From Cyclobacteriaceae bacterium (lineage in GTDB: Bacteria; Bacteroidota; Bacteroidia; Cytophagales; Cyclobacteriaceae): DNA of 64,000 nt. This document shows, piece by piece, positions 1 to 1,054 of this stretch; positions within the stretch are counted from its first letter, which is position 1, and each line of letters begins with the position of its first letter. The notes beneath the pieces are model-generated. The model was not told the origin of the DNA. It saw only the letters and a list, made by a program, of their open reading frames with translations, and ran no database searches. Location: positions 1,240,001 to 1,304,000 of the forward strand of contig JABFRS010000001.1 in NCBI GenBank assembly GCA_013141055.1. The letters run 5' to 3'. The position numbers and the translations under genes are program-made.

Positions 1-437
1 ACAATCTTCATATCCTCGACTATGAATACTATTTCAAAGTAGTTGATGGGCTGCTTGCTGAAAATCCAACAGTTCCTCTTCTCATTTTTGATGAGATCCT
101 GCGCAAAGGATTCGATGGACAGAATTTTATAGTGGGGCTAAGCGAACATCTTCGCAATCTTATGGTCTCCCAGGACGTCAGGACTGTTCAACTTATGGAA
201 GTACCTGACGTTACCAAGAAAAAATATATTGAGCAGTCAAAAGCTTCTCCTTATTCATTGCTGCTATCCTGGTTAAGCATCGCTAATCAATGCGACATCC
301 ATTACAAGGCCAGCAAAAATCAACGCCTCCTGGTAGAGTTGGCATTGATGAAAATGGCTCATTTCAAATCGACTTTTAACGGCCCTGCCCCCCTTCTCGA
401 ATCTGCGCAAGCAGGGTTAAAAAAAAAATTGAATTAA
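1..437 (+). CDS. dnaX: DNA polymerase III gamma (short DnaX form), 3' part
   Basis: Clamp-loader subunit that opens the sliding clamp at replication forks. The 5' end (AAA+ ATPase domain) lies outside the window; the frame is open from base 3. The visible part is the helical domain III, with the family-typical stretches LDYEYYFKVVDGLL, FDEILRKGFDGQNFIVGL and YKASKNQRLLVELALMKMAH. The frame ends at a TAA (435-437) only nine bases after an A10 run at 419-428. This would give a short gamma-like product. The tau-type extension continues in the -1 frame (428-1054), so this is not a simple gene end. The domain assignment is firm; whether the short product is made in the cell is inference. Confidence 0.9.
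   Translation, partial: NLHILDYEYYFKVVDGLLAENPTVPLLIFDEILRKGFDGQNFIVGLSEHLRNLMVSQDVRTVQLMEVPDVTKKKYIEQSKASPYSLLLSWLSIANQCDIHYKASKNQRLLVELALMKMAHFKSTFNGPAPLLESAQAGLKKKLN
419..428 (+). promoter_or_regulatory. A10 slippage site in dnaX
   Basis: Ten consecutive A residues read as the last base of TTA followed by AAA AAA AAA in the zero frame. A -1 slip of the ribosome, or RNA polymerase adding one A, moves reading into the frame that stays open to 1054. Homopolymeric A runs are known slippage sites in dnaX of E. coli (ribosomal) and Thermus (transcriptional). A sequencing error of one base in the homopolymer would look the same. Confidence 0.7.
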
Positions 438-1054
438 CGAAAGAACCGCAAGTTATTGCGGAAGTTCCACGACCTTCGGAAGAATCCACTTCGAAGTCTT
501 TAGAGAAACCTATTACTCAACCAAAGATTGCTGTTGAAGAGACCCAAAAACAGCAACCTCAGGAACCTGCTATTCCAAGAACTCCACTCAAAGGAACGAA
601 AGCAAAGACTTCATTCAATCTCAGCGGGCTCAACAAGAAAAATGATGGCCCTGCGATTGAGGAAAAGATTGAAGAAATTAAAGAAGCTATTATTAACCAC
701 AAAGTAGTTCTTGCAGAATTGCAGGAAGTATGGAATGAATATGCCGAATTGAGAAAAAATCAAGTGGGAGAATATCAACTTTTGAAACGTGAATTTGAAT
801 TCGATCATCCAACAATCTTTGTCATTCTTACCAATCCGGTTGAAGAATCTTTCATTGAAAATTTCAGACATGAATGCATCGCTTTCCTTCGGGATCGTCT
901 GAAAAATTCAGAGCTAACCATTACCACGCGTCTAAAACAAGCAGAAGGAAAAAGGATTATCTATACCTCAAAAGAAAAATTCGAACATCTCGCCGAAAAG
1001 AATCCATATCTCAATGAGTTGAAAGATAAACTAGGGCTGGATTGGGATTTTTAA
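428..1054 (+). CDS. dnaX: DnaX tau-specific C-terminal region (-1 frame)
   Basis: This frame is open without a start codon from the A10 run to the TAA at 1052-1054, about 208 residues. It begins IELTKEPQVIAEV, passes through a Pro/Gln/Lys-rich linker of about 60 residues (the usual gamma/tau linker composition) and a FNLSGL segment, then an alpha/beta domain ending GLDWDF. A linker plus C-terminal domain after domain III is the layout of tau, the form that binds the polymerase alpha subunit and helicase in well-studied bacteria. Coding appearance, length and direct continuity with the preceding frame show that both frames belong to one gene. Translation requires the slip at 419-428, or an unrecorded base. 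Confidence 0.8.
   Translation: MELTKEPQVIAEVPRPSEESTSKSLEKPITQPKIAVEETQKQQPQEPAIPRTPLKGTKAKTSFNLSGLNKKNDGPAIEEKIEEIKEAIINHKVVLAELQEVWNEYAELRKNQVGEYQLLKREFEFDHPTIFVILTNPVEESFIENFRHECIAFLRDRLKNSELTITTRLKQAEGKRIIYTSKEKFEHLAEKNPYLNELKDKLGLDWDF
446..461 (+). promoter_or_regulatory. Stem-loop downstream of the dnaX slippage site
   Basis: CCGCAA-GTTA-TTGCGG: a perfect 6-bp stem with a 4-base loop, starting 17 bases after the A run and 8 bases after the zero-frame stop. Outer GAA (443-445) and TTC (465-467) could add pairs past a bulge. The spacing is longer than in classical -1 sites, so a stimulatory role is a guess. Confidence 0.4.

Follow-up and report, generated by a model that had tools for sequence, protein, structure and literature searches.

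Reversed dnaX on a run of ten adenines in a Cyclobacteriaceae genome and its Bacteroidota relatives, with tau probably obtained through RNA polymerase slippage

Introduction

How does a bacterium obtain tau, the longer product of dnaX, from a gene whose zero frame encodes only the shorter product, gamma? The question is raised by a dnaX gene at the start of a 64,000-nucleotide stretch of Cyclobacteriaceae DNA (the window, meaning the whole of that stretch), in which a run of ten adenines (A10) is closely followed by the stop codon of gamma and the tau-specific part lies in the -1 frame. The coupling role of tau is established for E. coli, and transcriptional slippage in dnaX of Thermus thermophilus was reportedly described by Larsen in 2000. 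An earlier note, made from the sequence alone, had read the locus as a dnaX in reversed arrangement, with the short form as default product and tau dependent on slippage, and had named a homopolymer sequencing error as the main alternative. Here we compare the locus with dnaX genes across the Bacteroidota and weigh RNA polymerase slippage against ribosomal frameshifting, sequencing error and loss of tau.

Results

Layout of dnaX in the window

The zero frame of dnaX starts upstream of the window, at G000:C1:1239322, and its product is gamma, of 371 aa. The features that lie within the window are as follows.

1..437, + strand: 3' part of the dnaX zero frame (gamma); NF011531, 1.9e-51; Pfam PF12169, 20.4 bits, under its cut-off
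419..428, + strand: A10 slippery run, from the window sequence; a run of at least nine As is found in 253 of 277 non-redundant loci
428..1054, + strand: -1 frame with linker and tau-specific C-part, stop at 1052-1054; NF011531, 1.6e-22 for 437-1051; this part under purifying selection in 7 close pairs of relatives
430..432, + strand: TGA, stop of the +1 frame, 1 nt past the run, from the sequence
435..437, + strand: TAA, zero-frame stop ending gamma, from the sequence
596..1051, + strand: conserved tau C-terminal domain, consensus end ..EKNPxLxxLKxxLGLDxD, from an alignment of 53 sequences

In the frame of 3..437 the region of the run reads TTA AAA AAA AAA TTG AAT TAA, the stop at 435-437 beginning 6 nt and ending 9 nt past A10. 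The -1 frame (codon starts at positions equal to 2 modulo 3) is open across A10 and ends at 1054, with 224 open codons in total; among the three frames leaving A10, that of tau is open and the other two are closed within nine bases. Both halves of the gene are matched by the NCBIfam DnaX model NF011531/PRK14971 (1.9e-51 before the run, 1.6e-22 after it) and in succession, profile positions 242-365 falling before the run and 415-612 after it. Searched genome-wide, the tau C-part returned a single match and the gamma part three, the window's own at 3.6e-246 and the sole other one listed at 3.6e-10, and the whole of gamma matched PDB chains named DNA polymerase III subunit gamma/tau with a best value of 7.1e-58. 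The elements that the earlier note had described, namely the A10, a zero-frame stop nine bases on and a long tau-like -1 frame, are thus borne out by the sequence and by the PRK14971 matches. Judged by sequence, the dnaX of the window has a real and conserved two-ORF, or reversed, layout, the function of which we infer.

Survey of dnaX in Bacteroidota

Homologs of dnaX were sought in 58 near genomes, 292 genomes of the order, 148 of the class and 148 of the phylum (these draws overlap), and also in named contigs, for which the best 80 matches were used. DNA was taken from part of the genomes with dnaX, giving 298 loci, from which ten without a tau frame or gamma end (L319 among them) were dropped; removal of 11 near-duplicates from the 288 with a gamma end and a recognisable tau part left 277 non-redundant loci, window included. 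The tau frame lies at -1 in 181 of these, at 0 in 88 and at +1 in 8, and since the loci were partly picked for a short or long frame, and families holding both were sought out, the off-frame share is not a frequency. The class draw was chosen without regard to frame: its 148 genomes gave 147 rows, 45 of them with no more than 470 codons in the open frame and 102 with more. Less five pieces or contig ends, removed by eye from the 45 short rows (G345, G377, G337 and two rows of G466), a short zero frame is found in 40 of 142 complete genes, or 35 of 137 outside the window's family.

A linker run of at least nine As is present in 253 of the 277 loci and has exactly ten As in 221 of those 253. Length ten occurs in all three frame states and, across the 235 loci examined for phase, in all three codon phases. 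Off-frame loci carry A9 to A12 in 187 of 189 cases, the two outside this count being L234 (counted as A6, its A9 having been cut by the search interval) and L045 (A7 followed by G). Runs of at least A9 are accordingly more frequent in off-frame than in in-frame loci (187/189 vs 66/88; Fisher 2e-10, uncorrected for kinship); once kinship is taken into account, off-frame state and run are no longer significantly linked (median p 0.125 over 17 pairs and 0.5 over 15), because the run seldom differs between paired loci, and this weighs against the slippage reading. All 11 loci in which no run reaches six As are in frame; nine of them come from the class and phylum draws, and the others are L203 and L204 of family f21. 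In this last pair, from genomes of about 1 Mb, run and near stops are both absent and tau is plainly in frame.

Closure of the two non-tau frames is a further common property. Both stop within 30 nt of the run in 244 of the 253 loci with a run, compared with 25% at random tau codons (the 25% null, like the codon-phase, Shine-Dalgarno (SD) and folding counts below, comes from an earlier set of 258 loci, and the 244/253 from the set of 277). In the earlier set, double closure was seen in 167 of 170 loci with tau at -1, 54 of 58 with tau at 0 and 7 of 7 with tau at +1. The layout by itself accounts for the zero-frame stop of off-frame loci but not for closure of the third frame. Double closure is what would be required if messages in every frame were mixed. 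Near stops in both non-tau frames, as described for Thermus, are found in the window at 430-432 and 435-437.

Frame flips between relatives

In the window's own genus (g1; 31 non-redundant loci) tau lies at -1 in 28 loci, at +1 in one and at 0 in two. When these relatives were checked for an uninterrupted frame lacking an A-run, 29 of the 31 proved to be off-frame with A9 to A11, and the two in-frame exceptions have A9 in one case and A8 beside an N in the other. The change of state is illustrated by L023, where A10 is followed by TTGAACCC and tau is at -1, and L035 of the same genus, where A9 is followed by TGAACCC and tau is at 0. In genus g77 three species combine A10 with tau at 0, and a fourth combines A11 with tau at +1, although this lone A11 could be an error. 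More than one frame state also occurs within genera g145, g187 and g225 and within 17 coded families; in family f45, one of mixed states, there is an in-frame locus without a run.

Two trees built from gamma bodies yielded 17 and 15 independent supported-branch pairs that differ in frame, and in about 13 of the frame-differing pairs, on average, presence of the run is the same in both members. Changes between in-frame and off-frame states numbered 40 on the tree of 258 rows and 34 on that of 124 rows (one row per frame state per coded genus, where shuffled states gave a mean of 41.2 and a minimum of 34 in 100), both counts being inflated by weak branches. Across these comparisons it seems to be the length of the run, not the frame, that is kept between relatives.

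RNA polymerase slippage and ribosomal frameshifting

From these patterns we consider it probable that the window carries a reversed dnaX in which slippage of RNA polymerase on A10 yields mRNAs of every frame, tau being read from one of these. Slippage on A10 would produce mRNAs with A10, A11, A9, A12 and so on. The templated A10 message would be translated into gamma, ending at 435-437; one extra A would bring the tau C-part into frame and give a tau of about 577 aa (by arithmetic from the coordinates); and third-frame messages would end at the TGA of 430-432, giving a gamma of almost equal length. The clamp loader would be built from the two products, tau contributing the part that couples polymerase and helicase. 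That the polymerase is the slipping agent, as well as the direction and efficiency of the slip, is what we infer; slippage by the polymerase is favoured because run length is kept in every codon phase, both other frames are closed and all three template frames occur.

The nearest competitor holds that ribosomes change frame on an A10 mRNA, either by programmed -1 frameshifting or by sliding on the consecutive AAA codons, and so reach tau. We consider this unlikely, though a number of observations speak for it. Ribosomes themselves slide on AAA codons, and a ribosomal -1 shift is used by dnaX of E. coli; the available part of Atkins 2016 (PMC5009743) speaks of ribosomal frameshifting for reversed genes too. 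The 15 nt ahead of the run contain an SD-like string in 98 of 235 loci, vs 400 of 4700 gene-body control windows, an enrichment that, as a guess, the Glu and Gly of the linker explain in part. The E. coli heptamer, A_AAA_AAG, occurs in one relative of reversed layout, L045, as A7G in that phase. The +1 state is rare among loci with a run (8/253), as -1 shifting would predict; the same rarity equally fits slippage that mostly adds a single A.

Against ribosomal shifting, length ten is also found in codon phase 1, where the run offers only two full AAA codons (43 of 235 loci), and the frame at +1 of tau is closed near the run as well. Loci in the +1 state do exist: there are eight non-redundant ones, among which L163 and L318 represent congeneric species that share their layout, and since a -1 ribosomal shift does not serve them they were counted for polymerase slippage. 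A general 3' structure did not emerge either: folding of the sequence past the run showed no consistent pattern across 170 reversed loci (mean z -0.35, 17/170 below -2; control stretch 200 nt on, -0.10 and 7/170). Counting the other way, in each class folding past the run slightly exceeds that of the control, the in-frame loci giving a mean z of -0.82 vs -0.40, with 10 vs 6 of 58 below -2, and in the window a 6-bp hairpin lies about 17 nt past the run (z -2.1). Finally, two tRNA-Lys species, with UUU and with CUU anticodons, are both present in the genome (30 of 33 tRNA matches inspected), which also counts against a ribosomal shift; according to the available part of Atkins 2016 (PMC5009743), Thermus, a user of slippage, likewise has two tRNA-Lys, a situation linked there to slippage. 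An E. coli-type shift site in the window was tried as a candidate and rejected, the run having no AAG and no general hairpin being evident past the run among relatives.

Individual loci depart from the common pattern. L045 (4090-4120) is a reversed dnaX with A7G replacing A10, known from one metagenome assembly, and its tau would need a -1 ribosomal shift. Four loci of Pontibacter type, L114, L117 (named Pontibacter), L173 and L174 (alike), have only A7, with tau in frame 0. Structure past the run is strong in L114 (z -3.5) and L117 (z -2.8), compared with -0.3 in L173 and 0.2 in L174, and the combination of A7 and strong structure in L114 and L117 looks like ribosomal shifting in the style of E. 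coli. Among codons in the five positions before the run, GAG makes up 106 of 201 Glu codons, vs 1898 of 5065 in the gene body.

Chance or sequencing error

That the true run is A11, with tau in frame and one A lost in sequencing or assembly, was a reasonable concern given that homopolymers are error-prone and that single loci are one A off their near kin (L012 with A9, L183 with A11). We now regard it as very improbable. The -1 state with exactly A10 is found in 165 non-redundant loci, window included, from many assemblies, and an error would leave unexplained the stops in both other frames past the run in 244 of 253 loci. The same off-frame A10 occurs in independent assemblies that include the named isolates Pseudochryseolinea, Parachryseolinea, Fulvivirga, Algoriphagus and Belliella, and a homopolymer error is therefore excluded in practice. 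The sequencing error that the earlier note had put forward as main alternative thus falls away for the group as a whole, and the reversed reading it proposed, with the short form as the zero-frame product, gains support from the same off-frame A10 in relatives.

Runs of this length are scarce elsewhere. Both strands of the 4.65 Mb genome together hold eight A10; in the gamma bodies of 258 loci (270,846 nt) A10 is absent and the longest run is A9, seen twice, whereas in the 120,234 nt of tau domains there are two A10 and one A12. One other A10 of the genome, at G000:C1:123824-123833 (L002), joins a 348-aa ORF ending soon past the run to a frame of about 465 codons continuing beyond it. The frames around it gave no Pfam family at cut-off and no PADLOC family, and L002 is a candidate second slippage gene or a recent frameshift. 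The A10 runs at G000:C1:100066, G000:C1:2120039, G000:C1:2545774 and G000:C2:694759 each fall within one open frame (432-692 codons between stops), and truncated slippage products are possible there.

Constraint on the tau part

In seven close pairs of off-frame relatives, of which the window is not a member, dN/dS is 0.09-0.26 for the tau-only part and 0.007-0.052 for the gamma body; in off-frame relatives the tau part evolves faster than gamma, yet is constrained. Synonymous differences of the window's tau part from that of 12 relatives have reached saturation or come close to it. A profile of the tau C-domain was built from the window and 52 of 56 selected relatives (the 56 chosen from 167 usable). 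Against solved structures it gave no convincing match (best E 0.14), so that no resemblance to the polymerase-binding domain of the tau of E. coli emerged. A Pfam scan of the window's tau part returned no family at E 0.001; PF28557 is borne by 89 of the 90 database proteins found with the tau part.

The short zero frame in the DNA would also fit a real frameshift mutation that cost the gene its tau and left the 3' part as a relic, a reading that can hardly be right, given that the post-run part keeps its frame and its conserved domain in off-frame and in-frame relatives alike, that dN/dS is 0.09-0.26 in the same 7 pairs (the window in none of them), and that at near-saturated synonymous change in the window's tau part a relic would have decayed; decay of tau was rejected on the dN/dS of the relatives.

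Discussion

The reversed arrangement of dnaX is, going by the available parts of the two papers, already published (Antonov 2013, PMC3711429; Atkins 2016, PMC5009743). As far as the available part of Antonov 2013 (PMC3711429) goes, it lists 17 two-ORF dnaX genes whose tau depends on recoding, with poly-A in 12 and ten As in nine of these, Chlorobium and Chloroherpeton being among those named. The window shares with them a gamma ORF ending directly past the shift site, a tau C-part at -1 and A10, and nothing essential differs; the frame mosaic, the +1 state and double closure are not described in that part of the paper. A search of the open-licence literature by titles and abstracts found the reversed layout described only in Antonov 2013 and Atkins 2016, and neither its frequency nor its repeated reversal in Bacteroidota described. 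What is added here, from sequence comparison, is the repeated flipping of the frame among relatives on a constant A10.

Comparison with other systems, drawn from the available parts of the cited papers, places the window among known users of slippage and recoding. Thermus thermophilus dnaX (PMC1088944, PMC5009743, PMC4320859) likewise has an A-run, of nine As, with near stops in both non-tau frames, and makes tau and gamma from one gene; there, however, the zero frame is tau and slippage makes gamma, whereas in the window gamma is the zero-frame product. E. coli dnaX (PMC5009743, PMC3711429) has the same product pair and a gamma stop right past the shift site. Its site is A_AAA_AAG, with an upstream SD and a hairpin, its tau is in frame zero and a single tRNA-Lys reads both AAA and AAG; the window has A10 without a G in the site, tau at -1 and two tRNA-Lys, and no general hairpin is evident among its relatives. 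In Blochmannia vafer and B. floridanus (PMC3017870) dnaX also has a poly-A frameshift, and full-length tau is thought to need transcriptional slippage, but there the tract falls within the tau-specific region, 3' of the E. coli-type slippage site, and it is presented as a frameshift rather than as something programmed. Shigella mxiE (PMC1088944), a different gene, also has two ORFs joined by slippage, the longer product needing it, with one nucleotide added on a run of Us.

These comparisons bear on the switch of default that the earlier note had proposed. The layout it described stands, but the novelty does not, since two-ORF dnaX genes needing recoding for tau appear in the available part of Antonov 2013 (PMC3711429). 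Moreover, to speak of a 'default' may be misleading: efficient slippage of RNA polymerase on A10 would yield both products irrespective of the frame in the DNA, and relatives flip between layouts. A broader proposal, which we regard as evenly poised, is that the ten-A length, which roughly equals that of the RNA-DNA hybrid inside RNA polymerase, and the closure of both non-tau frames, rather than the frame itself, are what is conserved in Bacteroidota dnaX. Efficient slippage would then make the frame in the DNA nearly neutral, lineages would drift between tau-by-default and gamma-by-default, and the prevalence of tau at 0 and -1 over the rare +1 would reflect a polymerase that mostly adds a single A.

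The arrangement also has consequences for annotation, as databases hold mostly the short form of DnaX. Among the best 120 gamma relatives listed, 117 have 363-414 aa, one has 454 (named partial) and two have 560 and 568, and of 90 separate tau-part proteins 19 are named, ten as 'hypothetical protein' and nine as 'gamma/tau'.

Together, these analyses suggest that the window's organism and its relatives rely on an 'error' of gene expression to make an essential replication protein. The natural frame flips at constant A10 offer ready-made tests of how much the frame in the DNA matters once the polymerase slips, and of what sets the length at ten.
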